Source of the DNA: Rhodoferax sp. TH121
GTDB lineage: Bacteria; Pseudomonadota; Gammaproteobacteria; Burkholderiales; Burkholderiaceae_C
Direction of reading: 5' to 3'
Assembly (NCBI RefSeq): GCF_002251855.1
Contig: NZ_NOXW01000020.1
Location: 620,001 to 684,000, forward strand
Length of the DNA stretch: 64,000 bases
Below are positions 6,621-50,744 of this stretch, in pieces. A model generated the notes under the pieces. That model saw only the letters and a program-made list of their open reading frames with translations, did not search any database and had not been told where the DNA came from. Every line of letters starts with the position of its first letter. Position 1 is the first letter of the stretch. Position numbers and translations under genes: made by a program.

Positions 6621-6640
6621 AACAGGGCAACACCAATACA

Positions 6641-6667: not shown

Positions 6668-6686
6668 GCATGGAGCCAAGCTTGGT

Positions 6687-7328: not shown

Positions 7329-7362
7329 GGGGTTATCCTGCAAGGTGTGTGTCAACAAGAAT

Positions 7363-9408: not shown

Positions 9409-9460
9409 GGTGGTTGGGACGGGGCAGTGAAACTCAAAAGCAGATGGGGTCTGGCCGGGC

Positions 9461-10333
9461 TTATGCAAGATCACGCAGGGCCGCATCGCGCTCTGCGGCT
9501 TCCAACGTGTTGACCAGCAACATGGTGATGGTCATGGGGCCCACGCCACCAGGCACCGGGGTGATGTAGCCGGCTACTTCGCTCACGCCAGCAAAATCCA
9601 CGTCGCCGCAGAGTTTGCCCGCGTCATCGCGGTTCATGCCCACGTCGATGACCACGGTGCCGGGTTTGACCATGTCGGCGGTGAGCACATTGCGCTTGCC
9701 TACGGCGGCCACGATCACGTCAGCTTGCAGGGTCATGGCTTTCAAGTTGACGGTGCCGCTGTGGCAGATGGTGACGGTGGCATTTTGTTGCAACAGCATC
9801 ATGGCCATGGGCTTGCCCACGATGTTGGAGCGACCAATGACGACGGCATGCTTGCCCTTGAGGCTGTAGCCAATGCTTTCCAGCATCTTCATGCAACCGT
9901 AGGGGGTGCAGGGCCAAAAACCGGGTTGGCCCACCATGAGCGCGCCAGCACTCGCTACGTGGAATCCGTCCACGTCTTTGGCGGGCGAGATGGCCTCGAT
10001 CACCTTGTGCGCGTCAATGTGTGCAGGCAAAGGCAGCTGCACCAGGATGCCGTGGATGCTGGGGTCATTGTTCAGCGCGTCCACGCGGGCCAGCAATTCA
10101 GCCTCGGTCATGGAGGCCTCATACTTTTCCAGTATGGAATGCAATCCGGCATCTGTGCAGGCCTTGACCTTGTTGCGAACATAGACTTGGCTGGCTTGGT
10201 TGTCGCCAACCAGGACCACGGCCAGCCCGGGAGTGAGTCCGCGGGCCTTGAGGGCTGCGGTACGGGTGGCGACGTCGCCGCGGAGTTGGGCCGCCAGGGC
10301 GTTGCCGTCAATGGTCTGTGCGGGAACTGTCAT
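9461..10333 (-). CDS. Methylenetetrahydrofolate dehydrogenase/cyclohydrolase
   Basis: FolD (290 aa) interconverts 5,10-methylene-, methenyl- and 10-formyl-tetrahydrofolate with NADP+, supplying one-carbon units for purines and formyl-Met. The conserved [14 protein letters not shown] segment with the catalytic Lys (about 55), the family signature ending in VQLPLP, the [10 protein letters not shown] region, the Rossmann motif [14 protein letters not shown] and the C-terminal [11 protein letters not shown] signature are all present. Length fits E. coli FolD (288 aa). A terminator at 10351-10382 isolates it from the response regulator upstream. Confidence 0.97.
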
Positions 10334-31930: not shown

Positions 31931-32563
31931 TTACAGCACTCCCATCAGGTAGACAAAGGTAAAGACGCCGATCCAGACTACGTCCAGAAAGTGCCAGAAC
32001 ATGGACAGGCACATCAGGCGGCGCGTGTTGGCAGGGATCAGGCCGTGTTTGCTGATCTGGACCATCAGTACCACCAGCCAGATGAGGCCGAAGGTAACGT
32101 GCAAGCCGTGTGTGCCCACCAGAGTGAAGAAAGCCGACAGAAACGCACTGCGCTGGGGTGTGGCGCCTTGGTGTATCAGGTGGTAGAACTCATACAGCTC
32201 CAGGCCCAGGAAACACAGGCCGAAAAAGCCGGTCACAGCCAGCCACAGCAGCGTGCCTTTCACGTCGCCCAGTTGTTTGCGCAGCATGGCAAAGCCGAAG
32301 GTGATGGACGACAGCAGCAGAAACGCCGTGTTGATGGCCACCAGTGTCAGGTCAAACAGTTGGGCACCGGTGGGGCCTGCAGCATAGCTGCGGCCCAGTA
32401 CGCCGTAGGTGGCAAACAAGGCGGCAAAGATGAGGCAGTCGCTCATCAGGTAGAGCCAGAAGCCCAGGGCCGTGCCGTTCTCGGGGTGGGGCTCGTGGGC
32501 GAGGTGGTACTCGCGCACGGCCATGGCGCCAGCGGCGCTTGTGTGCAGGGTGGTATCAGACAT
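31931..32563 (-). CDS. Cytochrome bo quinol oxidase subunit III
   Basis: CyoC (210 aa) is the five-helix subunit III of the bo3 quinol oxidase. Family motifs [51 protein letters not shown] and the C-terminal [20 protein letters not shown] are present. E. coli CyoC is 204 aa. The start at 32563 overlaps the cyoB stop by eight bases; the longer open frame is read-through into cyoB. Confidence 0.96.
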
Positions 32564-34571
32564 GGCGGGCCAGTTGCAGTGTGCGGACTTCTTCGCTGGC
32601 AGCCACGTCGGCTGCAGGGATGTAGAAGTCACGCTGGTAATTGAAAGTGTGGGCGATGCATGCGAGCAGCAGCGCGGCAAACGACACGCCGGCCAGCAGC
32701 CACATGTGCCAGATCAGTGCAAAGCCAAACACCAGCGACAGGGCCGAGATCACTACACCGGCACCGGTGTTGGCAGGCATGTGGATCGCCTGGTAGCCGC
32801 GCAGCGGGCGCTGGTAGCCGTGTTTTTTCATGTCCCACCAGGCATCAATGCTGTGCACCACGGGGGTGAAGGCAAAGTTGTAGTCGGGCGGGGGCGAGGA
32901 AGTGGCCCACTCCAGCGTGCGTGCATCCCAGGGGTCGCCGGTGTGGTCGCGCAGTTCTTCTCGCTTGAGGTAGCTCACCACCAGCTGGATCAGGAAGCAG
33001 GCAATACCCGCCGCAATCATGGCAGCGCCGATAGCAGCCACCACGAAGTAGGGCTGCAGGGAAGCGTCTTCAAAATGGTTGGCACGGCGGGTCACGCCCA
33101 TCAGGCCCAACACATAGAGTGGGCCAAACGCGACCCAGAAGCCCACCACCCACAGCCAGAACGAGCGCACGCCCCAGGTGCGGTCCAGCTTGTAGCCAAA
33201 AGCCTTGGGGTACCAATAGTTGATGCCGGCAAACAGGCCGAACAACACACCGCCGATGATCACGTTGTGGAAGTGGGCGATCAGGAACAGGCTGTTGTGC
33301 AGCACAAAGTCAGCCGGTGGCACCGCCAGCAGCACGCCGGTCATCCCGCCAATGGCAAAGGTAATCATGAAAGCCACGGTCCACATCATGGGCAGCTCAA
33401 AGCGGATGCGGCCCTTGTACATGGTGAACAGCCAATTGAAGATCTTGGCCCCCGTGGGGATCGAGATGATCATGGTCGTGATGCCGAAGAAGGTGTTCAC
33501 GCTGGCGCCGGAGCCCATGGTGAAGAAGTGGTGCAACCACACCAAGTACGACAAGATGGTGATCACCACAGTGGCGTACACCATGGAGGTATAGCCAAAC
33601 AGGCGTTTCTTGCAGAACGTAGCCACCACCTCGGAGAAGATGCCGAAGCAGGGCAGGATCAGGATGTAGACCTCGGGGTGGCCCCAGATCCAGATCAGGT
33701 TCACGTAGAGCATGGGATTGCCACCCAGCTCGTTGGTAAAGAAATTGGTGCCCACATAGCGGTCCAGCGACATCAGCACCAGGGCAGCGGTCAACACGGG
33801 GAAGGACGCCACGATCAGTGCATTGGTGCACAGGGCGGTCCAGGTGAACACAGGCATCTTCATCAGGCTCATGCCGGGTGCGCGCATCTTGATGATGGTG
33901 ACGATCAGGTTGATGCCCGAGAGCGTGGTGCCCACCCCGGCAATCTGCAGCGCCCAGATGTAGTAGTCCAGCCCGGTGCTGGGGTTTTGCGCCCCCAAGT
34001 TAGACAAAGCCAGCCAGCCGGACGTAGAGAACTCGCCCAGGAACAGCGACACCATCACCAGCACGGCGCCTGCGGTGGTCATCCAGAAACTGAAGTTGTT
34101 CAGAAAAGGAAACGACACGTCGCGCGCACCGATCTGCAACGGGACCAAGTAGTTCATCAGGCCCGTGACCAGCGGCATGGCCACGAAGAAGATCATGATC
34201 ACGCCGTGGGCGGTGAAGATCTGGTCGTAGTGGTGCGGTGGCAGGTAGCCCATGTTGTCGCCAAAGGCCATGGCCTGTTGCAGGCGCATCATCACGGCGT
34301 CGGCAAAGCCGCGCAGCAGCATCACCAGGCCCAGGATCATGTACATGATCCCGATCTTCTTGTGGTCGATGCTGCAGATCCAGTCGCGCCACAAGGGGCC
34401 CCACAGACGGAACTTGGTGATGGCGGCCATCACGGCCAGACCGCCCAGCACCACGGCGATAAAGGTCCACAGCACGATGGGCTCGTGTGCCATGGGCACG
34501 GCGTCCCAGTTCAGCCGGCCCAAGGCCCAGTGGGAGGGGGAGACAGTTTCAGAGGACATAGGAATGCTCAT
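32556..34571 (-). CDS. Cytochrome bo quinol oxidase subunit I
   Basis: CyoB (671 aa) holds low-spin haem b, high-spin haem o and CuB, reduces oxygen to water and pumps protons. The haem-copper core is intact: [12 protein letters not shown], the CuB region [14 protein letters not shown] with the His-Tyr pair, [10 protein letters not shown] and the haem-ligand segment [13 protein letters not shown]. Fifteen or so helices are visible. Length fits E. coli (663 aa). The start at 34571 overlaps cyoA by four bases (ATGA type); 34559 is also possible. Confidence 0.97.
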
Positions 34572-35614
34572 TGACGGATGCTGGCGCGCGACGTGGCGCG
34601 GGTTTCGAGCGCGGCCATTTGCTGGGGCGCGTTCTGTGGTGTGCAAATGTCCTGGGGCAGGTTCAGGCCGGCTGAGCGCACATAGGCGTCGCCGCCTTGG
34701 GCGTCGATGGCCATCATGTGGTGCATGCACATCTTGCCGTCTTCGACGCAGCGGTTGAGCACCTTGTCGTACAGGCCTTCCTCGACACTGGAAAACCGCT
34801 GCACCGGATCACGTTCGCTGGGTTGTACCAAGGCTTGGTAGGTATTGCGGTCCAGGGCCTTGCCCTCGGCCTTGGCCGTTTGCACCCATTGGGAAAAATC
34901 CTTTTCGCTCAGGCCGTGGAACTTGAACGTCATGCCTGAAAAGCCGGCGCCGCTGTAGTGCGAAGACATGCCTTTGTACACGCCGGGCTTGTTGATCACG
35001 GCGTTGAGCTCGGTCTGCATGCCGGGCATGGCGTAAATCATGCCGGCCAGGTCTGGCACGTAGAAGGCATTCATGGTCGATGTAGCCGTTAGCTTGAAGA
35101 GAATGGGGCGGTCCACCGGGGCAGCCAGTTCGTTCACCGTGGCGATACCTTGCTCGGGGTAAAAGAACAGCCATTTCCAGTCCATGGCTACCACGTACAC
35201 CTCCATTGGCTTGCTATCGGCGGGTAGCGGGCGCTGGGCGTCGATCCGGTCCAAGGGGCGGTATGGGTCCAGCTTGTGGGTACCGATCCAGGTTAATGCC
35301 CCGAGTGCAATGATGATCAGCAAAGGAACCGTCCAGATCACCAGCTCTAGCGATGTGGAGTGGTGCCACTCGGGGTCATATTCGGCCTCTGTATTGCTTT
35401 GGCGGTACTTCCAGGCAAAAAACAAGGTCAGTGCAATGACCGGAACAATGATGATGAGCATCAACAAAGTTGCGGTGATGACCATTTGGCCTTGTTGGGC
35501 GGCAATGTCGCCTGCCGGGTTGAGCACAACAGCCTTGCTGCAGCCGCTCAGGGCGACACTCAGGGCAATGGCAGCCAGGCAGGCGGGTCTGCGGAGTTCC
35601 AGGGTTTTGGGCAT
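34568..35614 (-). CDS. Cytochrome bo quinol oxidase subunit II
   Basis: CyoA (348 aa) is the membrane-anchored cupredoxin-fold subunit, here as in E. coli a lipoprotein (LSGCSKA, lipidated Cys near 25) with two membrane helices (about 44-67 and 90-110). The periplasmic domain has [20 protein letters not shown] and lacks the CuA ligands of cytochrome c oxidases, confirming a quinol oxidase. The C-terminal part has CMHHMMAID. It is the first gene of the run cyoABCD-surf1-regBA; no cyoE (haem o synthase) is in the window. Confidence 0.96.
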
Positions 35615-37609: not shown

Positions 37610-38968
37610 ATGAGCCGTATTCCCCTCACCGCAGACGCGGTGCTGGCCTTGTCCCCCGACGATGCATCGACCAAGGCCGCGCGCGGTCTGGTGGCACCGG
37701 CCAAGTGGCCCATGCTGGGCGCCAGCGACGCGGCGGTGTGGGGTGAGTGCCAGGGCAGCGGCAGCAAGCCCTACCAAACGCAGGTGGACGTGTCGGGCGC
37801 GGGGCCTACGTTCCGCTGCAGTTGCCCCAGCCGCAAGTTCCCGTGCAAACATGGCCTGGCCTTGCTGTTGTTGCAAGCGCAAACCCCGCAAACGTTTACC
37901 GCCGCAGAGCCGACCTGGGTCAGCGAATGGCTGGCATCGCGTCTGGAGCGGGCCGAGAAAAAAGAAGCCAAGGCCGCTGCTGCACCAGCAGTGGCCGACC
38001 CCGCCGCCGGTGCCAAACGCGAAGCCCAGCGTCTGCAACGCATGGCCGCCGGCGCGCAAGAGCTGGCGCTGTGGCTGGACGACACCAGCCGCAAGGGCTT
38101 GGCCACTGTGTCCGACAGCGACGGGCCTGCGTGGGCCACCATGGCGGCGCGCATGGTCGATGCCCAAGCGCCGGGTTTGGGCGAACGTGTGCGGCAGGCG
38201 TTTGCGGTGGTCGGGCAGGGGCGCGATTGGCCTGCGCGTCTGCTGGGGCGTTTGGGCAATTTGCAGCTGCTGGTGGACGCCGTGGCGCAGCGCGAGCACC
38301 TGCCGCCCGGTCTGCAGGCCGATCTGCGCCAGGCCCTGGGTTGGCCCCTGGAGCGAGACGAGGTGCTGGCCAGCGGTGAGCGCGTCAGCGACCAGTGGCA
38401 GGTGTTGGCCCAGGTGCTGGTAGAGCGCGAGGCGCGCCTCACCGAGCGGCGTGTCTGGCTGCAGGGCACGCGCAGCCAGCGCCGTGCCTTGCTGGTGGAT
38501 TTTTCGTTTGCTGGCAAGGCGTTTGAGCAGGGCTGGAGCGTGGGCGTTCCGCACAGTGGCACGCTGGCGTTCTACCCCAGTGCCGACCCGCTGCGTGCGC
38601 TGCTTGCGGAGAGCAAACCGGCGCCAGATGCGACACCCTTGCGCCAGGCGCCAAGCCGCACTGCCGAATGGACCGCACTGGCCACACGCATGGCCGCCAA
38701 CCCCTGGGCGCAAAGTTGGCCGCTGTGGCTGGAGACCGTGCAGTTGCAATACACGGCCGATGCCGAAAACCCGTGGTGGCTGTGGGCGGATGCAGGCGCC
38801 ATCCCGCTGGCCATTGGTGAGGCCGATGCCTGGCAGCTGATGGCCATGGCCGCTGGTGGGCCGGTAGCCGTGTTTGGGGAGTGGACCGGTGAACTGTTGC
38901 GCCCCCTGACCGCCTGGTGTGATGCCGACCGCTGGTCCGCCAGCAGTGTGCAAGGAGACCCGGCATGA
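37610..38968 (+). CDS. SWIM zinc-finger protein of a yeh-type cluster
   Basis: This 452-aa protein has a SWIM zinc finger near the N-terminus: Cys70, Cys72, Cys79 and His81 (FRCSCPSRKFPCKHGLAL), fitting CxCx(n)CxH. SWIM domains bind DNA or proteins. The rest is Ala- and Arg-rich and mainly helical, with an alpha/beta C-terminal region rich in Trp (ENPWWLWADAGAIPLAIGEADAW). It resembles the SWIM protein YehQ of E. coli in domain type. It overlaps the next gene by four bases (ATGA), so it is the first gene of a coupled five-gene operon. Confidence 0.85.
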   Translation: MSRIPLTADAVLALSPDDASTKAARGLVAPAKWPMLGASDAAVWGECQGSGSKPYQTQVDVSGAGPTFRCSCPSRKFPCKHGLALLLLQAQTPQTFTAAEPTWVSEWLASRLERAEKKEAKAAAAPAVADPAAGAKREAQRLQRMAAGAQELALWLDDTSRKGLATVSDSDGPAWATMAARMVDAQAPGLGERVRQAFAVVGQGRDWPARLLGRLGNLQLLVDAVAQREHLPPGLQADLRQALGWPLERDEVLASGERVSDQWQVLAQVLVEREARLTERRVWLQGTRSQRRALLVDFSFAGKAFEQGWSVGVPHSGTLAFYPSADPLRALLAESKPAPDATPLRQAPSRTAEWTALATRMAANPWAQSWPLWLETVQLQYTADAENPWWLWADAGAIPLAIGEADAWQLMAMAAGGPVAVFGEWTGELLRPLTAWCDADRWSASSVQGDPA

Positions 38969-40578
38969 ACGACTGGAACGCCTTGTTGCAGGCTGCGTTG
39001 CTGGGTGCGGAGAGGCCGTGGAGCTTGCCCGCCCTTGCACAGGATGGTGCTGCGGACCCTGTGGCCCGCCTGCTGCGCGACGCCCGTGTGCAATCCGCCA
39101 CCGATGTCCCCGGCCTGCTGCTGCGTCTGGCCGGTGCCAAAGCCGTATGCCAACGCGCTGGCTGGACGGCAGCTGCTGCGCCACGTGCGCCGATGGCACC
39201 GGCCGCACCCGAGTCGCGTATGCCCGCTGATGCCGTCTGGAGTACGTTGTTGTCCCAGGCCTTGGCTCTGGGCGTGCCGCGTTTGCAACACCAGGTTTTG
39301 TTTGCCATGGACGCCGCAAGCCTGCATGCACCGCCTGCCGTGTTGCCGGTTTTGCTACACGCCGGGCGCCAGAGCGTTGCATTGCGCAACCATTTGCTGC
39401 CCGTGCTGGGTGAGCGTGGCCGTTGGCTGGCACAGCAGAACCCGGAGTGGGCCTACGCCTGTGGCGCGCAAGAACAGGCCGACACCCAAACGCATTGGGC
39501 GCATGGCAGCCTGGAGCAACGCTGCGCCGTGTTGCGCACCGAGCGCGCCAGCGCACCCGCAGCGGCCCGCGAACGCCTGCAGGCCGATTGGGACAACCTG
39601 GCCGCCAAAGACCGCGTCGCGCTGATTACCATCCTGCGCGTTGATCTGTGCTTGGATGACGAGACCTTCTTGAACACCCAGCTCAAAGATCGCGCACTGG
39701 ACGTGCGTCGCACGGCAGCCAAGTTGCTGGCCGCCTTGCCTAGCAGTGACTACGCCCAGCGCATCACGGCACGCATGGTGCCGCTGGTGGTGCGCAGCCA
39801 GGTCGAGCCTGGGTTGTTGGGGCGCATGCTGGGGCGATCGGCCACGGAGCAGCGCGTCACGCTGGATGCCCCGACGCAGCCCGACGCCGACTGGAAGACA
39901 GACCTGCTGGAGCCGGAGCGCCCCACCCACGAGTCGCTCGGTGAGCGCGCGTGGTGGCTGTACCAGCTCACCAGCCGCACGCCCTTGGCTTGGTGGACCG
40001 CGCATACCGGGCTGGCACCGGCAGAGCTTTTGGCGCTGGCTCAGCGCAGCGACTGGACGGAAGCCCTGGTACGCGGCTGGACGGATGCCCTGCTGTGGCA
40101 GCGTGATCCGGCGTGGGCGCAAGCGCTGCTCGACCATGCGGGGGATCTGCGCGGCGACCACCGGGCCGAGCTGTTGGCGATGTTGTCCGCACCGCAGCGG
40201 GAAGCGTTTTTGCTGCAGCAACTGGGTGAGCCAAAGCAGCTGTACGAAGTGGTTGCTGCGTGTTTGGCGGGTTGTGCCTTGCACGCCTCCCTGGGGCCGG
40301 CGGTATCAACGCGGCTGGCGCAGTTGCTGCGCCAGCAGATCGACCGCGGTGCGCTGCTAGACAACTACAGCTTGCGCAGCCTGCTGCCAGAGGTGGTGTG
40401 TGCGCTGCATCCAGGCACCGCGCACCCGCTGATGCATTTGCCACGCAGTGCCGAAGAAACCACTTCCCTGACCGAAGCCTTGACCCTGCTGGAGCAGGTG
40501 CTCCACAGCCGCCAGCATTTGATCCAATTGACTGAATCCACGATTGAAGCAACCTCTACGGAAGCCCAAACACCATGA
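38965..40578 (+). CDS. DUF5691-family protein
   Basis: This 537-aa protein matches DUF5691 in context and general form: mostly helical, repeat-like segments (RLQHQVLFAMDAASLH..., VALITILRVDLCLDDETFLNTQLKDRALDVRRTAAKLLAALP) that resemble HEAT-like solenoids. It has no catalytic motif I can see and no membrane segment. It lies between the SWIM gene and the MoxR ATPase, each overlapping it by four bases, so it is translated together with both. A scaffold or adaptor role is inferred from the helical repeat form. Function unknown. Confidence 0.75.
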   Translation: MNDWNALLQAALLGAERPWSLPALAQDGAADPVARLLRDARVQSATDVPGLLLRLAGAKAVCQRAGWTAAAAPRAPMAPAAPESRMPADAVWSTLLSQALALGVPRLQHQVLFAMDAASLHAPPAVLPVLLHAGRQSVALRNHLLPVLGERGRWLAQQNPEWAYACGAQEQADTQTHWAHGSLEQRCAVLRTERASAPAAARERLQADWDNLAAKDRVALITILRVDLCLDDETFLNTQLKDRALDVRRTAAKLLAALPSSDYAQRITARMVPLVVRSQVEPGLLGRMLGRSATEQRVTLDAPTQPDADWKTDLLEPERPTHESLGERAWWLYQLTSRTPLAWWTAHTGLAPAELLALAQRSDWTEALVRGWTDALLWQRDPAWAQALLDHAGDLRGDHRAELLAMLSAPQREAFLLQQLGEPKQLYEVVAACLAGCALHASLGPAVSTRLAQLLRQQIDRGALLDNYSLRSLLPEVVCALHPGTAHPLMHLPRSAEETTSLTEALTLLEQVLHSRQHLIQLTESTIEATSTEAQTP

Positions 40579-41654
40579 GCCAAGTCCTACGCCAACACGC
40601 CGAACACCAATTTGCCGAAGAGCTGGCCAACCTGCAGCAGGTCGACAAACGCCAGCGCCCCGCCAACTGGAAGCTGTCGCCCTGGGCCGTGGTGACCTAT
40701 CTGATGGGTGGCAAGCTCGACAACGGTTTTGAGGTGACGCCCAAATACATCGGCAACCAGCGCCTGATGGAGATCGCAGTCTCCACGCTGGCTACTGACC
40801 GCGCGCTGCTGCTGTATGGCGTGCCGGGCACGGCCAAGTCCTGGGTGTCCGAGCACCTGGCCGCTGCGGTCAGTGGCGACTCCACCATGCTGATCCAGGG
40901 CACGGCCGGCACCAGCGAAGAGCAGCTGCGCTACGGTTGGAACTATGCCGAGCTGTTGGCCCATGGCCCGTCCGACAAGGCCCTGGTGATCAGCCCGCTG
41001 GTCAGCGCCATGCGCCTGGGCAAGATCGCCCGCATCGAAGAACTGACCCGTATCCCTGCCGATGTGCAAGACGCGTTGATTACGGTGTTGTCCGAAAAGA
41101 CCATGCCCATCCCCGAGCTGGGCAGCGAGGTGCAGGCCACGCGTGGTTTCTCGGTGATAGCCACGGCCAACAACCGCGACAAGGGTGTCAACGAGTTGTC
41201 CAGCGCGCTCAAGCGCCGCTTCAACACCGTGGTGCTGCCTGTGCCCGATACCGAGGACGAAGAGGTGCGCATCGTCGCCAAACGTGTGGCCGAGCTGGGC
41301 CGTGCGCTGGAGCTGCCCGCCGAGCCGCCGGCGCTGAAAGAAATCCGCCGCGTGGTGCAAATCTTCCGCGAACTGCGCAACGGTCTCACGGCCGATGGCA
41401 AGACGCGTATCAAGTCGCCCACCTCCACGCTGTCTACGGCGGAAGCTATCTCCGTTATCAACAGCGGCATGGCCCTGGCTGGGCACTTTGGCGATGGTGT
41501 GTTACATGCGCGCGACATTGCATCGGGCCTGCTGGGCGCCGTCGTCAAAGACCCGGTGCAAGACCAGGTGGTGTGGAAGGAGTACCTGGAAACCGTGGTC
41601 AAGGAGCGCAGCGATTGGAAAGAGCTGTACCGCGCCTGTCGTGAGCAGTTGTGA
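40575..41654 (+). CDS. MoxR-family AAA+ ATPase (YehL-like)
   Basis: This 359-aa ATPase has Walker A GVPGTAKS (82-89), a Walker B-like RIEELTRIP near 155-163, sensor-1 SVIATANNRDKG near 194-205, and the arginine-finger region ALKRRFNTVVLPVP, all typical of MoxR-type AAA+ proteins. These usually act with VWA-domain partners as chaperones or metal-insertion or disassembly factors. The E. coli YehL subfamily shares this gene neighbourhood. It overlaps the DUF5691 gene by four bases and is 22 bases ahead of the DUF5682 gene. Confidence 0.92.
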   Translation: MSQVLRQHAEHQFAEELANLQQVDKRQRPANWKLSPWAVVTYLMGGKLDNGFEVTPKYIGNQRLMEIAVSTLATDRALLLYGVPGTAKSWVSEHLAAAVSGDSTMLIQGTAGTSEEQLRYGWNYAELLAHGPSDKALVISPLVSAMRLGKIARIEELTRIPADVQDALITVLSEKTMPIPELGSEVQATRGFSVIATANNRDKGVNELSSALKRRFNTVVLPVPDTEDEEVRIVAKRVAELGRALELPAEPPALKEIRRVVQIFRELRNGLTADGKTRIKSPTSTLSTAEAISVINSGMALAGHFGDGVLHARDIASGLLGAVVKDPVQDQVVWKEYLETVVKERSDWKELYRACREQL

Positions 41655-41676
41655 GCACCCCGCACCGCCTTGTGTG

Positions 41677-44010
41677 ATGGAAGATTCCACCGTTCACTAC
41701 TTCGGCATACGCCACCACGGCCCGGGATGCGCGCGCAGCCTGCACGCTGCGCTGGCCGCCTTGCAGCCCGACTGTCTGCTGATCGAAGGCCCGCCCGATG
41801 CCGATGGGCTGTTGCCCTTTGTGACCCACGCCGGCCTGCAGCCACCGGTGGCCCTGCTGGTGCACAGCCCGGACGACACGCACGCCTCCGCCTTCTACCC
41901 CTTCGCTGCGTTCTCGCCCGAATGGCAGGCGTTGCAACACGGCGTGCAGCGCGGCATTCCCACCCGCTTTATCGACCTGCCGCAAGCAGTGCGACTGGCG
42001 CAAAACAAGGTGTACCGTGAAAAAGAAGATGCTATTGAAAAGATAGCTGCCGGCGCAGATGTGACGGGGGCTGGTGCCGAAAAAGGCTTGGAATCTGCTG
42101 TGGAGGCCGTTTTCCCGCAGCACCATGATCCCATGGACGCGCTGGCCCACGCGGCCGGCTTTGCCGATGGCGAGAGCTGGTGGAACCAACTGGTGGAAGA
42201 GCGCGGCGACAGCGAAGACCTGTTTGCCGCCATCCACGAAGCCATGGCCGCGCTGCGCGAAGATTGGCCCGACGACGCCCGCGGCCCACGCGCCGCCGAG
42301 CGCGAGGTGCAGCGCGAAGCCCATATGCGCCAGTGCATACGCGAGGCTGTGGGCCAGGGCCATGCGCGCATCGCCGTGGTCTGCGGCGCCTGGCACGTGC
42401 CCGCACTGCAAGCCAAACACACGGCCAAGGCCGATGCGGCCCTGCTCAAGGGCCTGCCCAAGATCAAGGTCAGCGCCACCTGGGTGCCCTGGACCTACCG
42501 CCACCTGACCTGGGCCAGCGGTTATGGCGCCGGAGTAGATTCCCCCGGCTGGTACGACTACCTGTGGCAACGCAGCCAGGGCGGTGGTGATGCCGAGCCA
42601 TCGCGTGCGGTGGTTTCGCGCGCCAGCGGCTGGCTGGCCCGCGTAGCCCGTTTGCTGCGTGCGCACCAGCTGGACTGCTCGTCAGCCCACATTATCGAAG
42701 CCTCGCGCCTGTCCGACACGCTGGCCGCGCTGCGCGGCCGTACCGAGCCGGGCCTGGAAGAGTTGAACGAAGCCGTGCGCACCGTGGTCTGCATGGGCGC
42801 GTCGGCCCCGCTGGAGCTGATCCACCGCGCGCTGACGGTGAGCGACCGCATGGGCCAGGTGCCGCCCGAGGTGCCCGCCGTGCCGCTGCAACGCGACATC
42901 GAACAGGCGCAAAAGAGCCTGCGCCTCAAGCCCGAGGCGCTGGAGCGCACGCTGGACCTGGACCTGCGTACTGCCAACGACCTGGCCCGCAGCCACCTGC
43001 TGCACCGCCTGCGCTTGCTGTCCATCCCCTGGGGGGAACCCGCCCGCAGCGACCGCGCCAACCGCGGCACCTTCCGCGAAACCTGGCGCCTGCAATGGCA
43101 GCCCGAGTTTGCGCTGCGCATCATCGAGGCCACACGCTTCGGCCCCACGGTGGAGCTGGCGGCCAATGCTTGCGTGGCCGAGCAGTGCGCCACGCTGACG
43201 CGCCTGGACGCATTGGCCGAACTGGTGGACACCGTGTTGCTGGCCGACCTGGGCACGGCGGTGCAAGCGGTGAGCCACGCCTTGCAAACCCAAGCCGCCA
43301 TCACCGGCGACGCGGTGCAGCTCATCAGCGCGGTGCCACCGCTGGCCCGCGTGTTCCGCTACGGCAGCGTGCGCCAGATGGATGGCGACCTGCTGGCAAA
43401 AATTCTGGACGGTCTGATCACCCGCGGCGCCATCGGCCTGTCGCTGGCCTGCCACAGCCTGGACGACAGCGCCGCAGAGGCATTGCGCGAGACTTTGCTG
43501 CCCGCACACGATGCAGTGGGGCTGCGCGACAGTGCGGAGCCCACGCAAGCCTGGCAGCAGGCCTTGCAGCAGATCGCAGTAGGCGACGCATGCCACGCGC
43601 TGCTGCGCGGCCTGTGCTGCCGCTTGCTGATGGATGCCGGCCATATCGACCAGACCCAGGCGGCCGTGCAGTTGTCGCGCAACCTGTCGGCCGGCGCATT
43701 GCCGTTAGAGGCCGCGCAGTGGCTGGATGGATTCTTGAACCGCAACGCCATGGTGCTGTTGCACGATGCGGCCGTGTGGAGTTTGGTCGACGCATGGCTG
43801 GCCGATCTGGCGGATGTACATTTTCTGCAAGTCGTGCCGCTGCTGCGCCGCAGCTTTGCGAACTTTTCGCAATCGGAGCGGCGTGAGCTGGGTGCGCGTG
43901 CGGCGCAGGGCGTCAAGGTCGCGCCTGTGGTTGTTGCCAGCGAAGGCGATGCGGTGCGTGCCGCGCTGCCGGTGCCTACCTTGCGCCTATTGTTAGGACT
44001 GCCTGCATGA
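41677..44010 (+). CDS. DUF5682-family protein (YehM-like)
   Basis: This 777-aa protein begins with YFGIRHHGPGCARSLHAALA, characteristic of DUF5682, and has a segment IAVVCGAWHVPAL near 230 reminiscent of TraB/PrgY-type folds, followed by a long helical C-terminal half. Its length is near that of E. coli YehM. The start at 41677 gives the conserved N-terminus; the open frame upstream overlaps the ATPase gene. At codons 119-139 it contains the dispersed repeat as in-frame sequence (DAIEKIAAGADVTGAGAEKG). It overlaps the VWA gene by four bases. Function unknown; a partner of the MoxR ATPase is inferred from neighbourhood. Confidence 0.82.
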   Translation: MEDSTVHYFGIRHHGPGCARSLHAALAALQPDCLLIEGPPDADGLLPFVTHAGLQPPVALLVHSPDDTHASAFYPFAAFSPEWQALQHGVQRGIPTRFIDLPQAVRLAQNKVYREKEDAIEKIAAGADVTGAGAEKGLESAVEAVFPQHHDPMDALAHAAGFADGESWWNQLVEERGDSEDLFAAIHEAMAALREDWPDDARGPRAAEREVQREAHMRQCIREAVGQGHARIAVVCGAWHVPALQAKHTAKADAALLKGLPKIKVSATWVPWTYRHLTWASGYGAGVDSPGWYDYLWQRSQGGGDAEPSRAVVSRASGWLARVARLLRAHQLDCSSAHIIEASRLSDTLAALRGRTEPGLEELNEAVRTVVCMGASAPLELIHRALTVSDRMGQVPPEVPAVPLQRDIEQAQKSLRLKPEALERTLDLDLRTANDLARSHLLHRLRLLSIPWGEPARSDRANRGTFRETWRLQWQPEFALRIIEATRFGPTVELAANACVAEQCATLTRLDALAELVDTVLLADLGTAVQAVSHALQTQAAITGDAVQLISAVPPLARVFRYGSVRQMDGDLLAKILDGLITRGAIGLSLACHSLDDSAAEALRETLLPAHDAVGLRDSAEPTQAWQQALQQIAVGDACHALLRGLCCRLLMDAGHIDQTQAAVQLSRNLSAGALPLEAAQWLDGFLNRNAMVLLHDAAVWSLVDAWLADLADVHFLQVVPLLRRSFANFSQSERRELGARAAQGVKVAPVVVASEGDAVRAALPVPTLRLLLGLPA
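42031..42091 (+). repeat. Dispersed repeat copy within the DUF5682 coding sequence
   Basis: GCTATTGAAAAGATAGCTGC then CGGCGCAGAT and GGGGGCTGGTGCCGA align with the intergenic copy at 62213-62267; 34 of 54 positions match ungapped by hand, and a one-base gap improves the 3' end. It is in frame and reads as part of the protein, between KVYREKE and VFPQHHDPM. Confidence 0.6.
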
Positions 44011-45218
44011 CCACATCCTCAGATTCCGACACTACCTCCGCCGCACCCGTGGAGCACACGGACCGCCTGCAACGCTGGCGCCTGGTGCTGGGTGGCGAGG
44101 CCGATGCTAGTTGCGGTGCCGCCAGCGGCAGTCTGCGCGAAATGGACCAGGCGCTTGCCGCGTTGTATGAACCCGAAGGCGCCAATGGCCTGGGCAAACG
44201 CAAAGGCGGGCGCGGCAATTCGTCGCCCAGCGTGGCGCGCTGGCTGGGTGATATCCGCAAATACTTCCCCAGCTCGGTGGTGCAAATCATGCAGCACGAC
44301 GCCATGCAGCGCCTCAACCTGCGTGAGATGCTGCTGCAACCCGAAATGCTGGAGACCGCCCATGCCGACGTGCATCTGGTGGCCAATCTGGTGGCGCTCT
44401 CAAACGTGATCCCCGATGGCACCAAGGACACCGCGCGCCAGGTGGTGCGCACCGTGGTGGACCAACTGCTGGAGCGCCTGCAGGAGCCCATGCGCAGCGC
44501 CGTCAGCGGGGCTCTGAACCGCAGCCAGCGCAACCGCCGCCCGCGCCACGCCGAGATCGACTGGAACCGCACCTTGCGCGCCAACCTGCAGCACTGGCAG
44601 CCGGACTACCGCACCATCATTCCGCAAACCCTGGTGGGTTATGGCCGCAAGGCCCGCAGGCCGCAGCGTGAGGTGATTTTGTGCATCGACCAAAGCGGCT
44701 CCATGTCGGCCTCGGTCGTCTACTCCAGCATCTTCGGCGCCGTGATGGCCAGCCTGCCGGCCGTGGCCACCAAGCTTGTCGTGTTTGACACCGTGGTGGT
44801 GGACATGACCGAGAAGCTGGACGACCCGGTGGACCTGCTGTTTGGCGTGCAACTGGGCGGCGGCACCGACATCAATGGCGCGGTGGGTTATTGCCAAAGC
44901 ATCATCCAGGAGCCGCGCAACACCATCCTGGTGCTGATCTCTGACCTGTACGAAGGCGGTGTCGAAGCCGGCCTGTTGCGCCGCGCGCAAGAGCTGGTGG
45001 AGGCCGGCGTGCAGTTCATCACACTGCTGGCCCTGAGCGACGAAGGCGCGCCGTCCTACGACCGCGAACTGGCCGCGAAATTGGCCGCGCTGGGCGTCCC
45101 CAGCTTTGCTTGCACACCCGATGCCTTTCCCGGCCTGATGGCGGCCGCCATCCGGCGGGACGATGTGGGTGCGTGGGCCGCGGGGCAGGGCATCAAGACG
45201 AGCCGGCCAGTCGGCTAG
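44007..45218 (+). CDS. VWA-domain protein (YehP/CoxE-like)
   Basis: This 403-aa protein has a von Willebrand factor A domain in its C-terminal half. The MIDAS metal site is intact: Asp228, Ser230 and Ser232 (CIDQSGSMSAS), a Thr in GGGTDIN near 290 and Asp in LISDLYEGG near 313. The N-terminal half is helical and charged. VWA proteins of this type partner MoxR ATPases. It is the last gene of the cluster, overlapping the DUF5682 gene by four bases, and faces the YceI gene across a repeat copy. Confidence 0.9.
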   Translation: MTTSSDSDTTSAAPVEHTDRLQRWRLVLGGEADASCGAASGSLREMDQALAALYEPEGANGLGKRKGGRGNSSPSVARWLGDIRKYFPSSVVQIMQHDAMQRLNLREMLLQPEMLETAHADVHLVANLVALSNVIPDGTKDTARQVVRTVVDQLLERLQEPMRSAVSGALNRSQRNRRPRHAEIDWNRTLRANLQHWQPDYRTIIPQTLVGYGRKARRPQREVILCIDQSGSMSASVVYSSIFGAVMASLPAVATKLVVFDTVVVDMTEKLDDPVDLLFGVQLGGGTDINGAVGYCQSIIQEPRNTILVLISDLYEGGVEAGLLRRAQELVEAGVQFITLLALSDEGAPSYDRELAAKLAALGVPSFACTPDAFPGLMAAAIRRDDVGAWAAGQGIKTSRPVG

Positions 45219-45311: not shown

Positions 45312-46031
45312 TCAAAAATGACTGCCTGTGGCCAGTAATGAAAACTTGATCTTGACCGTGTCCACCACCAGCAGTGCCCCCATGGCAATGCTCAGCGGGG
45401 TGATGCCAAAGTCGCTTTGTTTGATCTCGAACCCACCGGTGACCCGCAGGCCCCCATCGGTGGTCTGCAGCGTCACCGGCACGGTGACCTGGCGCGTCTG
45501 GTCGCGTATGCGCAGCGCCGCGATGACCACGGGCGCCTTGGCGTCACCCTGTATCCTCACCGAGGTGATGCGAATCTCCGGGTAACGCGCACCGTCCAGC
45601 AAGGTTTCGCGCAGCATATTGGCCTTGGTGCCTTGTTTGGCGTCTTCGCTTATGTTGGCGGGGAAGTCTTCGCCTTCGGCGGCGCGTGCTGCGTTGTCGT
45701 CCACCACCAGTTCATTCACCGGCACCGTGATCTCAAAGCCCGCGTCTTCCAGCGCAGCGCCTTGCCACACACGGCCTTGCAGGTTCTGCGAACTCACCAC
45801 ATGGTTGTGGCCCAGCCGGGCCATGGGGCCACCACGGTAGACCAAGATGTGTAGCGTGGAGGCTGCAGGGTCCACCTGGTACATCTTGGCCGGGGACGAT
45901 GCGGCAACCGACTGCGCTGCTGCAATTGGTGGTGCGGCATCCGCTGGTGCAACTCCCGTGGGTGCAGCGCTGCACCCCGCCAGCACGGCGATACACACCA
46001 GCAGCAGACCATGCAGCCTAGGGCGCTCCAT
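45312..46031 (-). CDS. YceI-family lipoprotein
   Basis: This 239-aa protein has a lipoprotein signal (VLAGCSAA, lipidated Cys near 20) followed by a flexible Ala/Pro segment and a YceI-type lipocalin-like beta-barrel (MYQVDPAASTLHILVYRGGPMA, LGHNHVVSS, then FEIKQSDFGITPLS). YceI proteins bind long isoprenoid or similar lipids in the periplasm or outer membrane. The start at 46031 is just downstream of the dehydrogenase stop at 46037, so it may be the last gene of the sugar-acid operon, although its function does not fit sugar metabolism. Confidence 0.88.
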   Translation of the reverse strand: MERPRLHGLLLVCIAVLAGCSAAPTGVAPADAAPPIAAAQSVAASSPAKMYQVDPAASTLHILVYRGGPMARLGHNHVVSSQNLQGRVWQGAALEDAGFEITVPVNELVVDDNAARAAEGEDFPANISEDAKQGTKANMLRETLLDGARYPEIRITSVRIQGDAKAPVVIAALRIRDQTRQVTVPVTLQTTDGGLRVTGGFEIKQSDFGITPLSIAMGALLVVDTVKIKFSLLATGSHF

Positions 46032-46036
46032 GTGGT

Positions 46037-47044
46037 TCAGCACTCCACAATCGCCTTGATCACGCCCTCCTTGGGATCCAATAAGTCCTGGAACTTGGTG
46101 GGCACTTCGGCCAGAGTCAGGCGGTGGGTATTCAAGGCCTGTGGAATCAGCCCGGCGCGCATGGCTTTTAGTACGGTCTCAAAGTCTTCGGCGGTAGCGT
46201 TGCGGCTGCCCATGAGGGTCATTTCACGTTTGTGAAACTCGGGGTCGGAGAAAGTGATGTTCGCCCCCACCACCGAAATCAGCACATAAGTGCCACCGTG
46301 CGCCACGAACTTGAAGCCGCGCTCCATGGCTTTGGGGTTGCCCGTTGCGTCAAACACCACGTCATAAAACTCATTGTTCGTCAGCGCAGCCAGCTGTGCT
46401 TCATCGGTATCGCCCAAGGCAACGCCTGCACCCACACCCAGTGATTGGGTGCAAAAGTCCAAGCGGTCTTGGCGCCCGTCTAGCGCGGTGACGACCGCAC
46501 CCTGCAGTTGCGCAAAAATCATCGCAGCCATCCCGATCGGGCCTGCACCCACGACCAGCACCCGTTGGCCTTTGCCTACACCGCTGCGGCGCACGGCGTG
46601 GGCGCCAATGGACAAAAACTCCACCATGGCCGCCTGGTCCAGCGACACGCCTTCCGCCTTGTGCACAAACTGCTGGGGCACGCTCAGGTATTCGGTAAAC
46701 GCGCCATCGGTATGCACACCCAGCACCTGGATGCGGGTGCAGCAATTGGTCTTGCCGGCCCGGCAGGCAATGCAGGTGCCACACGACAGGTAGGGCATCA
46801 CGTACACCGTGTCGCCGGTTTGGAGTGCGCTGCCTTCGGGGGCAGTTTCCACAATGCCGGACAGCTCATGCCCCATGACCCGTGGGTAGCTCAGGTAGGG
46901 CTGGTTGCCGGTGAAGATATGCAGGTCGGTCCCACATACGCCCACCCGTTTGACGCGCAGCAGCACTTCGTTGGCCGCACGTTGCGGTAAGGGGCGGTCG
47001 TGGGCACGCAGGGTGCCGGGGGTTTCGCAAACAACGGTCAGCAT
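46037..47044 (-). CDS. Zinc-dependent polyol/aldonate dehydrogenase
   Basis: This 335-aa medium-chain dehydrogenase has the catalytic zinc set (Cys near 37 in GVCGTDLH, His near 59 in MGHELSG), the structural zinc Cys cluster (CGTCIACRAGKTNC, about 88-101) and the NAD motif VVGAGPIGMAA. In this setting it probably oxidises an aldonate such as L-gulonate or L-galactonate at C5 to D-fructuronate or D-tagaturonate (RspB/LgoD-like), feeding UxuB or UxaA. Alternatives include sorbitol or idonate dehydrogenase. It follows the KDG kinase gene by 15 bases. Confidence 0.85.
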   Translation of the reverse strand: MLTVVCETPGTLRAHDRPLPQRAANEVLLRVKRVGVCGTDLHIFTGNQPYLSYPRVMGHELSGIVETAPEGSALQTGDTVYVMPYLSCGTCIACRAGKTNCCTRIQVLGVHTDGAFTEYLSVPQQFVHKAEGVSLDQAAMVEFLSIGAHAVRRSGVGKGQRVLVVGAGPIGMAAMIFAQLQGAVVTALDGRQDRLDFCTQSLGVGAGVALGDTDEAQLAALTNNEFYDVVFDATGNPKAMERGFKFVAHGGTYVLISVVGANITFSDPEFHKREMTLMGSRNATAEDFETVLKAMRAGLIPQALNTHRLTLAEVPTKFQDLLDPKEGVIKAIVEC

Positions 47045-47059
47045 GATGGGTTCCTTAGT

Positions 47060-48019
47060 TCATTCCAGATTCTGTGCGCTGAGTTCAGCGCGGGTGGGCA
47101 GGCCTTCCATGTCACCCACCACTTGCAGGGCGCGTGAGGCAATCCAATTGGCACGTCGCAAGGCCTGAGGCCAGCCCAGACCTTCGAGCTGCGCGCTGAT
47201 GATGCCCACCGCAAACGCGTCACCCGCGCCCACGGTGTCCACCACCACCGGCACGGGCACGCCAGGCACCTGCCCCTGTTCGCCGCTGGCGGTGTGGAAG
47301 TAGGCGCCTTTTGCGCCTTGTTTGATGACCACTGCCTTGGCACCCCGGTCCAGGTACCACGCGGCAATGTCGGCCGGGGTGCTCTGTCCGGTGAGCAACT
47401 TGCCTTCCTCGATACCGGGTAGCACCCAGTCCGCGTGGCGGGCCAGGTCGTTGAGGGTGTTGCGCATGGTGGCTGTATCTGGCCACAGGCTGGGGCGCAG
47501 GTTGGGGTCAAAGGACACGCTGCGGCCCGCTGTGCGCAGCGTTTGCATGGCGTGGGCCACCAGCTCGCGGGCCGCAGGCGACAGGGCGGGCGTGATGCCG
47601 GTGGTGTGCACATGCCGGGCGCGCAAAGCGTAGTCGGTGTTCAGGTGCGCCACGCTGAGCTGGCTGGCTGCTGAACCCCGTCGGTAGTACTCGATGGATG
47701 GGTCGCTGCCATCCACGCTGCGCGACTTGAGCATGAAACCGGTGGAGCGTTGCGGGTCAGTCTCGACTTGCGAGGTGTCCACACCTTCCGCCTCCACCGT
47801 TTTGCGCACATAGCTACCGAATGAATCCGACCCCAAGCGGCTTACCCAGCCGACTTTGAAGCCCAGACGGGCCAGGCCGATGGCCACATTGGTGTCGGCC
47901 CCTGCAATACGCTTGCTGAAACTATGTACCTCCGCCAAGGGGCCGGGCTCTTGTGCCACCAGCAGCGCCATGGTTTCGCCCATGGACAGCACGTCGAGTG
48001 CGTTTGCCCTGTCGTTCAC
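47060..48019 (-). CDS. 2-keto-3-deoxygluconate kinase (PfkB family)
   Basis: This 319-aa ribokinase-family protein has the PfkB signatures GADTNVAIGLARLG and DTVGAGDAFAVGI (with the catalytic Asp), fitting KdgK, which phosphorylates KDG to KDPG for the Entner-Doudoroff aldolase. Its place next to ManD, UxaA and UxuB supports this substrate. It overlaps uxuB by four bases (ATGA type). No KDPG aldolase gene is in this window. Confidence 0.9.
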   Translation of the reverse strand: MNDRANALDVLSMGETMALLVAQEPGPLAEVHSFSKRIAGADTNVAIGLARLGFKVGWVSRLGSDSFGSYVRKTVEAEGVDTSQVETDPQRSTGFMLKSRSVDGSDPSIEYYRRGSAASQLSVAHLNTDYALRARHVHTTGITPALSPAARELVAHAMQTLRTAGRSVSFDPNLRPSLWPDTATMRNTLNDLARHADWVLPGIEEGKLLTGQSTPADIAAWYLDRGAKAVVIKQGAKGAYFHTASGEQGQVPGVPVPVVVDTVGAGDAFAVGIISAQLEGLGWPQALRRANWIASRALQVVGDMEGLPTRAELSAQNLE

Positions 48020-49524
48020 GCTGCCAACTCCCCGCGGTTCACTGCTTCCAGAGTGGCTGCGACGCCGACTGTCTGTAGCGATTGCAACAGCGGAATCAAC
48101 GCGGCGGTGAGCGTTCCGTTACCAGCCAAGTCTCCAAACACCGGCGCATAAGCCAGCATTGCTTCTACAGATTGCTTGTTCACGTCCTGACCGAGGCTCT
48201 GCTGGTAAAGCGCGGTGAGTGTCGTCGCATGCGGGTCGTCAATGCGGTAGGCCTGACCCAGTTCGTCCACGCCGCGCAGATAGTGCATCCAAGCGGCCAG
48301 ACCCAAGGCCATGCGGGTGACGGATAGTCCACGCGCCAAGCGGTCACGCAAGGTGCCCAGCAGGCGCTGCGGCAGCTTTTGTGAGCCATCCATGGCGATC
48401 TGGTGGGTGCGGTGGGCCAAGGCGGGGTTGGCGTAGCGGGCCAGCAGGTTGTTGCGGTAGGCCGCCAGGTCCAGGCCGGGTAAAGCGGGCAGGGTGGGTT
48501 CAATTTCGTCGCGCATCAGCGCTTCGATGTGCGCGCGCAGGGCGGGCTGTGCGATGGCCTTGTCCACGGTCTGCCAGCCGGCCATGGCACCCAGGTAGGC
48601 CAGGCTGGAGTGGGTGCCGTTGACCATGCGCAGCTTGAGTCGCTCAAACGGCTCCGCATCGGGCACAAAGCGTGCGCCGCCCAGCGCCCAGTCCGGGCGG
48701 TCGGCAGCAAATTGGTCGCCGATGGCCCAGTCAAAAAACGGCTCGCCCAGCACGGGCCAGGCATCTGCCAGTCCCAGCGCTTGGCTGACTGCTGCGCGGT
48801 CGCCATCGGTGGTTTTGGGCACGATGCGGTCCACCATGGAGCAGGGAAAACGGCACTCCGATGCTATGCGCTTGGCCAAGTCCAGATTCACCTGCTCTGC
48901 AAAACGCAGCACGGCAGAGCGCAGTACGCGCCCATTGGCGGGCAGGTTGTCCAGCGACATCAGCGTGATCGGGGGCTTGCCCAGGGCGTAGCGCTGTTGC
49001 AAGCCATACACCAGGATCCCGATGGCCGAGCGGGGGGCGTGGGGGTGCGCCAGATCGAACACGATGTCCGGATGGTCCAGTCGCAGGGTGCCGGTGGCCG
49101 GGTCGTGGCAGTAGCCTTTTTCGGTCACCGTCAGGCTGACAATGCGGGTGTCTGCGGCAGCGATGGCATCCAGCACGGCTTGCGGGTTTTCAGGCGCTAC
49201 CAGCAGCTTGCGTACGGCACCTATGACGTGCAAACGTTGGCGTGGTTGGCCCTGGTCGTCCGCATCCCGAATCGCCAAGGTATAGAGACCGTCTTGCGCC
49301 GCCAGCGCATCGCGCGTGTCGGGCTGGCGCAACGACACACCGGTGATACCCCAGCGCAAATCCCCAGCAGCAATGGCAGCCTCCGTGGCCGCCGCCATGT
49401 GGGCGCGCATAAAAGCGCCTATGCCCAGATGCACGATGCCGGTTTTCAGCGCCCGGCGGTCGTAAGCCGGGCGGGCCACGGCGGCGGGCAGGGTCGTGAC
49501 CGTGGCGTCATTCAATCGGTTCAT
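48016..49524 (-). CDS. Fructuronate reductase / mannitol dehydrogenase family
   Basis: This 502-aa enzyme of the mannitol dehydrogenase family best fits UxuB, which interconverts D-fructuronate and D-mannonate with NADH. Visible features are the Rossmann start IVHLGIGAFMRAH, the conserved VTEKGYCHDP region, SLDNLPANGRVL, VDRIVPKT and the family Lys-containing segment KLRMVNGTHSSLAYLG. The ATG at 49524 is preferred; a GTG at 49536 overlaps the manD stop. The family also includes tagaturonate reductase (UxaB) and polyol dehydrogenases, so it may accept both uronates. Confidence 0.88.
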   Translation of the reverse strand: MNRLNDATVTTLPAAVARPAYDRRALKTGIVHLGIGAFMRAHMAAATEAAIAAGDLRWGITGVSLRQPDTRDALAAQDGLYTLAIRDADDQGQPRQRLHVIGAVRKLLVAPENPQAVLDAIAAADTRIVSLTVTEKGYCHDPATGTLRLDHPDIVFDLAHPHAPRSAIGILVYGLQQRYALGKPPITLMSLDNLPANGRVLRSAVLRFAEQVNLDLAKRIASECRFPCSMVDRIVPKTTDGDRAAVSQALGLADAWPVLGEPFFDWAIGDQFAADRPDWALGGARFVPDAEPFERLKLRMVNGTHSSLAYLGAMAGWQTVDKAIAQPALRAHIEALMRDEIEPTLPALPGLDLAAYRNNLLARYANPALAHRTHQIAMDGSQKLPQRLLGTLRDRLARGLSVTRMALGLAAWMHYLRGVDELGQAYRIDDPHATTLTALYQQSLGQDVNKQSVEAMLAYAPVFGDLAGNGTLTAALIPLLQSLQTVGVAATLEAVNRGELAA

Positions 49525-49532
49525 ATTCAGTA

Positions 49533-50744
49533 TCACCAGTTGGTCAGCGTGCCGTCGTGTTGCAGGCGGTTGACCGGCAGGTAGGCACGTTGGTAGGGGT
49601 ACTTGGCGGCGAGCGCTTCATCGATGGTCACGCCATGGCCGGGCGCCTCGCCAGGGTGCATGAAGCCATCCTTGAAGCTGTAGGCATGGGGAAACACGGC
49701 GTCAGTCACGTCGGTATGGCGCATGTACTCCTGAATGCCGAAGTTGGGCACCCACAGGTCGAAGTTCAGCGCAGCGCCCATGCACACGGGCGACAGATCA
49801 GTGGCGCCGTGCGAACCGGTGCGCACTTGGTAAAGCGCGGCCAAATCCGCAATACGGCGCAGGTGGGTGATGCCGCCTGCATGGACCACGGTAGTGCGGA
49901 TGTAGTCGATCAGCTGGTTCTCGATCAGGTCCTTGCAGTCCCAGATGGTGTTGAAAATCTCGCCCACGGCCAGCGGCGTGGTGGTGTGCTGGCGGATCAG
50001 GCGGAAGGCTTCCTGGTTCTCGGCGGGGGTGGCGTCTTCCATCCAGAACAGGCGGTAGGGCTCCAGGTCTTTGCCCAGTCGGCCTGCTTCGATCGGGGTG
50101 AGGCGATGGTGCACATCGTGCAGCAGGTGAATCTCCGGGCCCACGGCAGCGCGTACCTTGTCAAACAGCTCGGGCGTGTGGCGCAGGTACTTTTCGGTAG
50201 ACCAGTCGTGTTCGCTGGGCAGGTCGGCATCGGCAGGTTCGTAGAACATGGTGCCGCGGCCTACGCCGTACACCTTTTCAAGGCCGGGCACGCCGCTTTG
50301 GGCGCGGATGGCCTTGTAGCCCATCTCCTTGTAGCGCAGCACTTCTTCCACGGTTTGGCTGATGTCTTTGCCGTTGGCGTGGCCGTAGACCATGACGCCG
50401 GTGCGGCTCTTGCCGCCCAGCAACTGGTACAGCGGCATGTTGGCGGCCTTGGCCTTGATGTCCCACAGGGCGGTATCCACGCCGGCGATTGCACTCATGG
50501 TGACCGGGCCGCGGCGCCAGTAGGCGCCTTTGTAAAGGTACTGCCAGATGTCTTCAATCTGCTGCGGGTCGCGGCCAATCAGGCAGGGAATGACGTGCTC
50601 CGTCAGGTAGCTGGCCACGGCCAGCTCGCGGCCATTGAGGGTGGCGTCGCCGATGCCGGTCAGGCCCTCGTCGGTTTCGATTTTGAGGGTGACAAAGTTG
50701 CGACTCGGTGCGCAGACGATGACTTTGGCGGAAGTGATTTTCAT
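49533..50744 (-). CDS. D-mannonate dehydratase, enolase superfamily (ManD/RspA)
   Basis: This 403-aa enolase-superfamily protein dehydrates D-mannonate to 2-keto-3-deoxygluconate. It has the ManD signatures: the N-terminal [23 protein letters not shown], the Arg/Tyr loop ([17 protein letters not shown]), metal and catalytic residues in [23 protein letters not shown] and AVGEIFN, and [15 protein letters not shown]. Full length matches RspA/ManD proteins. Some ManD-group members also act on D-gluconate. It overlaps the upstream enolase gene by four bases. Confidence 0.93.

Follow-up and report, generated by a model that had tools for sequence, protein, structure and literature searches.

We propose that five adjoining genes of Rhodoferax sp. 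TH121 encode one self-contained machine, in which a MoxR ATPase and a CoxE-type VWA protein would use ATP to remodel a DUF5682 protein. The remodelling would load or activate the predicted N-terminal TIKI/TraB/ChaN-fold domain of DUF5682 as a hydrolase, the helical tail of the same protein would be the handle of the motor, and the SWIM and DUF5691 proteins, acting as one recruiting unit, would deliver the target to the enzyme. According to the accessible parts of the literature, the role of other MoxR-VWA pairs is to mature or activate dedicated complexes; by that rule, DUF5682 would be both the client and the output of the pair. We give this reading a probability of about 0.42.

MoxR-VWA systems are already known as a kind; the TIKI-fold partner and the split of the module into two versions are new here, and neither was found described in the open literature searched. 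The same literature, outside which subscription papers mostly lie, gave no function for the yehLMPQ operon of E. coli or for the five-gene module, and no mention of DUF5682 or DUF5691. Placing YehM/DUF5682 in a hydrolase superfamily, with its residues named, would turn an operon of unknown function into a biochemical question. Moreover, a sister version of the module is present in almost every E. coli, the two versions offer natural swap experiments, and fusions of SWIM with DUF5691 hint at a recruiting unit.

Organization of the operon

The window, that is the whole stretch of 64,000 nucleotides that was analysed, carries the following genes.

37610..38968, + strand: SWIM zinc-finger protein gene, 452 aa (Pfam PF04434, E 1.1e-5)
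37817-37852, + strand: SWIM metal ligands C70-x-C72-x6-C79-x-H81
38965..40578, + strand: DUF5691 protein gene, 537 aa (Pfam PF18944, E 5.1e-117)
40575..41654, + strand: YehL-type MoxR AAA+ ATPase gene, 359 aa (AAA_5 PF07728, E 3.8e-37)
41677..44010, + strand: DUF5682 gene, relative of E. coli YehM, 777 aa (PF18934, E 1.9e-254; alignment with YehM)
44007..45218, + strand: CoxE-type VWA protein gene, 403 aa (VWA_CoxE PF05762, E 2.7e-51)

We observed the gene set in this order with intact motifs. The initial annotation had described five plus-strand genes with three four-base overlaps, one 22-base gap and the domains named above, and the open reading frames and Pfam confirmed this to the base. 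By ORF coordinates the overlaps lie exactly at 38965-38968, 40575-40578 and 44007-44010, and the gap separates MoxR from DUF5682. The longest mechanical ORF of DUF5682 starts at 41395; with the start at 41677, the gap is 22 bases and the N-terminus is the one usual for the family. These data support a compact operon of five genes, and because the genes overlap they are probably co-transcribed.

A simple scan detected no sigma-70-like promoter for the operon. Terminator-like sites numbered 12, compared with 5.6 in shuffles, and most were located within genes. SOS or Deinococcus damage boxes 5' of SWIM were represented by scattered single matches. An MFS-transporter gene, likewise on the plus strand, precedes SWIM and ends at 37249, leaving 360 bases between the two; on the 3' side a YceI gene faces the operon. 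Both wider flanks are on the minus strand and look ordinary, with cytochrome/quinol oxidase subunits I and II at 32556-35614, and YceI, alcohol and mannitol dehydrogenases and an enolase-superfamily enzyme at 45312-50744.

Predicted fold of DUF5682

DUF5682 had been regarded as an effector-like part of the system. The analysis supports this and refines it to a predicted TIKI/TraB/ChaN-fold domain followed by a helical-repeat tail.

41677..42582, + strand: DUF5682 residues 1-302, predicted TIKI/TraB/ChaN-fold domain (model pLDDT 91.4, VIA-align Z, ChaN profile match)
41704..41715, + strand: first GX2H motif, G10-I-R-H13
41785..41787, + strand: conserved Glu37
42313..42327, + strand: R213-E-x-x-M217 motif
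42385..42396, + strand: second GX2H motif, G237-A-W-H240
42583..44010, + strand: C-terminal part of DUF5682, a mostly helical, repeat-like tail (model secondary structure, helical-repeat structural matches)

The full DUF5682 model, built from the window protein and 67 relatives, reached pLDDT 91.0 and consisted of an alpha/beta domain followed mostly by helices. A structure search with it returned repeat proteins throughout except at rank 1 (Z 9.8, residues 1-251), and the best structural rows across residues 445-745 were helical-repeat proteins. Because helical repeats crowded this search, the N-domain was folded separately, and residues 1-302 modelled alone gave pLDDT 91.4. Against the PDB, the best Foldseek match of this model had E 6.5e-3, and none reached 0.001. 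When the 345 Foldseek candidates were compared by VIA-align, 12 chains from 11 PDB entries scored Z of at least 5, although Z values of 5-8 may reflect common arrangements, as the tool itself notes.

Tetrahymena complex IV subunit, three entries: Z 10.2-10.4
ChaN 2g5g: Z 9.0 (159 aligned, 4.6 A)
HopBA1 5t09: Z 7.8
EreC 6xcs and 6xcq: Z 6.8 and 6.6
BcR135 2rad and 3b55: Z 6.7 and 6.6
RRSP 6a8j and 5w6l: Z 5.8 and 5.3

The first unrelated row was an aminophenol dioxygenase at Z 4.6. Entry 6a8j was taken as RRSP from its numbering; its title says only 'bacterial protein toxins'. According to the available sections of PMC6254334, RRSP, HopBA1, Bcr135 and ChaN are members of the TIKI superfamily, whose mechanism the Ere family shares. 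The same sections also include peptidases in the superfamily and describe an inactive member, PMT, which lacks the catalytic set. A TraB-family protein is named among the complex IV accessory subunits in a figure legend (PMC10060162, seen in part), and the Tetrahymena chain is probably that subunit. With this assignment, all 11 entries at Z of at least 5 point to the TIKI/TraB/ChaN superfamily as the predicted fold.

Conserved residues and profile comparison

Residues G10, H13, E37, R213, G237 and H240 were kept in at least 90 of 92 DUF5682 rows, and the corresponding set of GX2H, Glu, Arg and GX2H was invariant in the covering rows among 29 TraB sequences compared. The Glu of the ExH motif, two residues before the first His, was present in 18 of 18 ChaN rows; the position is occupied by Ile or Val in DUF5682 and by Thr or Ser in TraB. 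Because this extra Glu is absent, we did not file DUF5682 in the ChaN/Ere ExH subgroup.

We built an N-domain profile from 16 diverse DUF5682 members of both versions of the module (types I and II, described below). Against the ChaN profile (n = 18) it gave a probability of 73.6% and a score of 43.2 over 190 columns, while 60 column shuffles scored at most 19.9; against the TraB profile (n = 29) the values were 19.4% and 31.2, with 60 column shuffles at most 21.9. The four other module profiles matched the N-domain profile with a probability of at most 0.25%. When the profile was limited to type-I rows the match was weak, at 6.2% for ChaN and 1.7% for TraB; joining both row sets gave moderate values of 20.9% and 5.9%, respectively. 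In the alignment with ChaN, GIRH, the Glu region, REAxM and GAWH fell on its equivalent motifs, and in that with TraB, REAxM and GAWH did so. An Ere profile made of only 3 sequences did not match the N-domain (score 17.2). At E of 1 or less the Pfam families TraB PF01963, ChaN PF04187 and Ere PF05139 did not match DUF5682, which was recognized by PF18934 only, and the DUF5682 profile found no credible match among PDB sequences.

By predicted fold and motif, residues 1-302 would belong to the TIKI/TraB superfamily, and DUF5682 may be an active hydrolase. The protein shares with TIKI, TraB, ChaN and Ere the predicted fold and the set of GX2H, Glu and GX2H. It differs from them by its long helical tail, by being locked to a MoxR-VWA operon, and by the missing ExH Glu and Pfam matches.

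The putative motor pair and recruiting unit

The window pair resembles RavA-ViaA, CoxD-CoxE and NorQ-NorD, each of which is a MoxR ATPase with a VWA partner. In those systems, as far as the literature available in part describes them, the clients are respiratory or metal enzymes, and CoxD-CoxE has a role in metal-cluster insertion. In contrast, DUF5682 is the sole enzyme-like partner in the window module, and SWIM and DUF5691 are extra. The accessible portion of PMC3893208 describes MoxR proteins as chaperones that mature complexes and counts YehL as one of two MoxR ATPases in E. coli K-12.

Walker A of the window ATPase (GVPGTAKS) and its sensor and arginine residues were kept in an alignment of 86 rows that included E. 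coli YehL, and Walker B was the variant R-x-E-E in every covering row, YehL too. The VWA protein has the metal-site motif DxSGS, Thr and Asp, of which D228, S230, S232 and D313 were invariant among 88 rows. Intact motifs in both proteins thus support the earlier suggestion that the two form the motor.

The four ligands of the SWIM motif CxCx6CxH were invariant in 77 aligned rows, the distant YehQ type not being among them. In 5 of the 90 loci scanned (L017, L028, L055, L075 and L101) SWIM and DUF5691 are fused into a single reading frame, which supports a joint unit. An alignment of fused and single proteins looked misaligned, with DUF5691 rows 12-20% identical to the fused query. DUF5691 is the most divergent part of the module, with a median identity of 26% vs 72% for MoxR, which would fit a part facing varying targets. 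SWIM-DUF5691 may be the part that selects them. The initial annotation cast SWIM as recognizing a target and DUF5691 as a helical scaffold; both roles are putative.

Conservation of the five-gene set

A DUF5682 profile, searched against one genome per species, gave at least 592 candidates, of which at least 579 were confirmed, and the best 80 loci were used. Since these were ranked by their match to the window DUF5682, the sample favours type I. To call the core genes we used profiles that had been extended from the proteins of the window. Among these best 80 of at least 579 loci, 68 contain the complete set, and 62 carry SWIM, DUF5691, MoxR, DUF5682 and VWA in exactly this order on one strand. 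In the others with all five, genes are split or doubled (L041, L058, L072 and L103) or rearranged (L071 and L096). In seven of the 12 remaining loci the contig stops within or close to the operon (L035, L038, L057, L059, L079, L083 and L091), and two of these, L038 and L091, also have no VWA gene downstream although space allows. Five loci of the 80 are without some parts although space allows (L044, L053, L082, L087 and L095).

The arrangement is not due to chance, because order and strand are the same in 62 of 80 loci. Exact-order loci were found in Variovorax, Leptolyngbya, Anaerolineales, Chitinophaga, Planctomycetota, Arthrobacter, Verrucomicrobiaceae, Trueperaceae, Chthonomonas and Mailhella, which we take to represent about ten phyla. 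A restriction of the set to close relatives would have spoken against the initial annotation; the genes occur together well beyond these, and its view of a common cluster stands. The annotated plasmid copies of Deinococcus, Hymenobacter, Methylosinus and Rhizobium show the exact order too, except for the Methylosinus VWA. A search of viral contigs, with an over-long ORF as the query, gave no DUF5682 match, and one candidate contig was matched in a phage collection.

Two versions of the module

We compared the versions of the module in 299 genomes of the window's phylum, in which the genome handles listed agree between searches. DUF5682 was present in 12 of them. Type-I DUF5682 (658-865 bits) occurred in 6 genomes, exactly the 6 with DUF5691 over the cut-off, and there DUF5691 was always within 2 kb of it. 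Type-II DUF5682 (329-371 bits) occurred in 7 genomes, all 7 with DUF4132, which was on the same contig in 6. One genome (G196) carries one DUF5682 of each type. Two genomes had DUF4132 without DUF5682, and two further genomes had sub-threshold DUF5691 matches without DUF5682. The module therefore exists in two versions, DUF5691 accompanying type I and DUF4132 accompanying type II. The versions are not strictly exclusive, as a DUF4132-family gene lies beside or inside the operon at six Bacteroidota type-I loci; at L094, the only locus so checked, Pfam gave DUF4132 and HEAT matches. As to a possible common origin of the two families, the DUF5691 and DUF4132 profiles scored 32.1 against each other, compared with at most 19.6 in 40 shuffles, with a probability of 3.3%.

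The parallel drawn earlier with E. coli yehLMPQ was correct, but it did not mention that DUF4132 is found there and DUF5691 is absent. The E. coli operon belongs to type II and has WGR/DUF4132 genes upstream. Both systems have adjoining MoxR, DUF5682, VWA and SWIM genes, with the same MoxR and VWA motifs and key DUF5682 residues. They differ in gene order (MoxR-DUF5682-VWA-SWIM in E. coli), and the E. coli DUF5682 is 25% identical to that of the window. In the yeh version it would be SWIM with DUF4132 that brings the targets. We detected yehM in 5284 of 5426 complete E. coli genomes, in 5166 with at least 80% of its length, and 5289 of 5291 places were chromosomal.

The DUF5691 protein at L084 (7300-8910) is matched weakly by the DUF4132 profile (E 0.0016), consistent with helical repeats common to both. 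At the Fusobacterium vincentii locus L024 (6938-8851) a 638-aa protein without a Pfam match lies between SWIM and MoxR, in the place of DUF5691, and this is perhaps a third version of the module.

The probable client of the ATPase and alternative explanations

We compared all against all 4962 non-core ORFs from 90 loci. The top clusters occurred in 14, 9 and 9 loci and lay 2.9-3.9 kb away, while DUF4132 lay at a median of 83 bases from the operon, and besides DUF4132 there was no close, widely recurring outside family among these ORFs. Therefore the likeliest client of the ATPase would be DUF5682 itself. The statement of the initial annotation that no known client is encoded nearby holds for outside genes other than DUF4132, but the client may be the module's own DUF5682. 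A separate scan covered 99 of the 120 nearest neighbours (150-800 aa, loci below 15 kb left out), and no Pfam family occurred in more than 3 of them.

Instead of maturing DUF5682, the MoxR-VWA pair could unfold proteins delivered by SWIM-DUF5691 and feed them to a DUF5682 peptidase. The peptidases within the TIKI superfamily (PMC6254334, in its available part), the intact motifs of the AAA+ partner and the separate adaptor-like genes are consistent with such ATP-dependent proteolysis; the role of MoxR proteins as complex-maturing chaperones (PMC3893208, likewise partial) and the lack of a second catalytic Glu in DUF5682 argue against it, and no feature of a chamber-forming protease was found in the module. 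We consider it unlikely, and we are equally doubtful that the module is a new ATP-driven, adaptor-guided machine, unrelated to Clp, Lon, FtsH and the proteasome, in which MoxR-VWA controls a TIKI-fold peptidase. Somewhat less likely again is that MoxR-VWA puts a metal or haem into DUF5682 and the other proteins merely assist. The CoxE-type VWA, the metal-cluster role of CoxD-CoxE in the partly available literature, and the haem-binding ChaN as the best named bacterial structural match would agree with cofactor insertion, but it leaves SWIM and DUF5691/DUF4132 unexplained.

A conflict system was among the functions suggested initially. In such a system, or in one directed against phages, DUF5682 would be a lethal or target-cleaving effector; we do not favour this reading. 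The patchy spread (12 of 299 genomes) and the plasmid copies would suit it, and other MoxR-vWA ternary systems, which also combine MoxR and vWA with further components (VMAP, iSTAND, beta-propeller), are proposed conflict systems in the available parts of the literature. However, the Pfam search found no VMAP, iSTAND or beta-propeller third component in the module, and the bpMoxR model gave a partial match below its cut-off. PADLOC and NCBIfam models did not match SWIM, DUF5691, DUF5682 or VWA, and matched the ATPase only weakly or below threshold. Defence matches were few among the 99 neighbours, in uncontrolled counts: 39 PADLOC models were matched, and of the 25 listed, which include AbiEi, SspE, a type IV restriction enzyme and a reverse-transcriptase model, none was matched by more than 2 proteins. 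In addition, yehM is nearly universal in E. coli and nearly always chromosomal. We therefore regard this explanation as improbable. The least probable is a genotoxic-stress machine acting on nucleic-acid-bound complexes after DNA damage. According to the available part of PMC8533742, when Deinococcus radiodurans is depleted of DdrO its DUF4132 and WGR genes are strongly raised, and MolR was described as LexA-regulated; but nothing there places those Deinococcus genes with the five-gene module, and we observed no consistent LexA or RDRM site 5' of SWIM. Activation of DUF5682 by the MoxR-VWA pair remains the reading we prefer, with DUF5682 as the likeliest client.

Observations at individual loci

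Genes inserted within some operons differ from locus to locus. Several kb separate MoxR from DUF5682 at L027 (about 5680-9980), including a frame with a weak TPR match, and at L061 (about 6900-9990), including esterase-like and cyclase-like genes. A Desulfovibrio locus (L103, 4123-7313) has two consecutive DUF5691 genes. In the Methylosinus trichosporium plasmid copy (L018, 12169-13394) the VWA gene is split among three reading frames that overlap. Genes for a PDDEXK nuclease and a recombinase follow the operon in the Hymenobacter plasmid copy (L017, 13489-15249), and restriction genes follow it in a plasmid copy of Iodobacter (L021).
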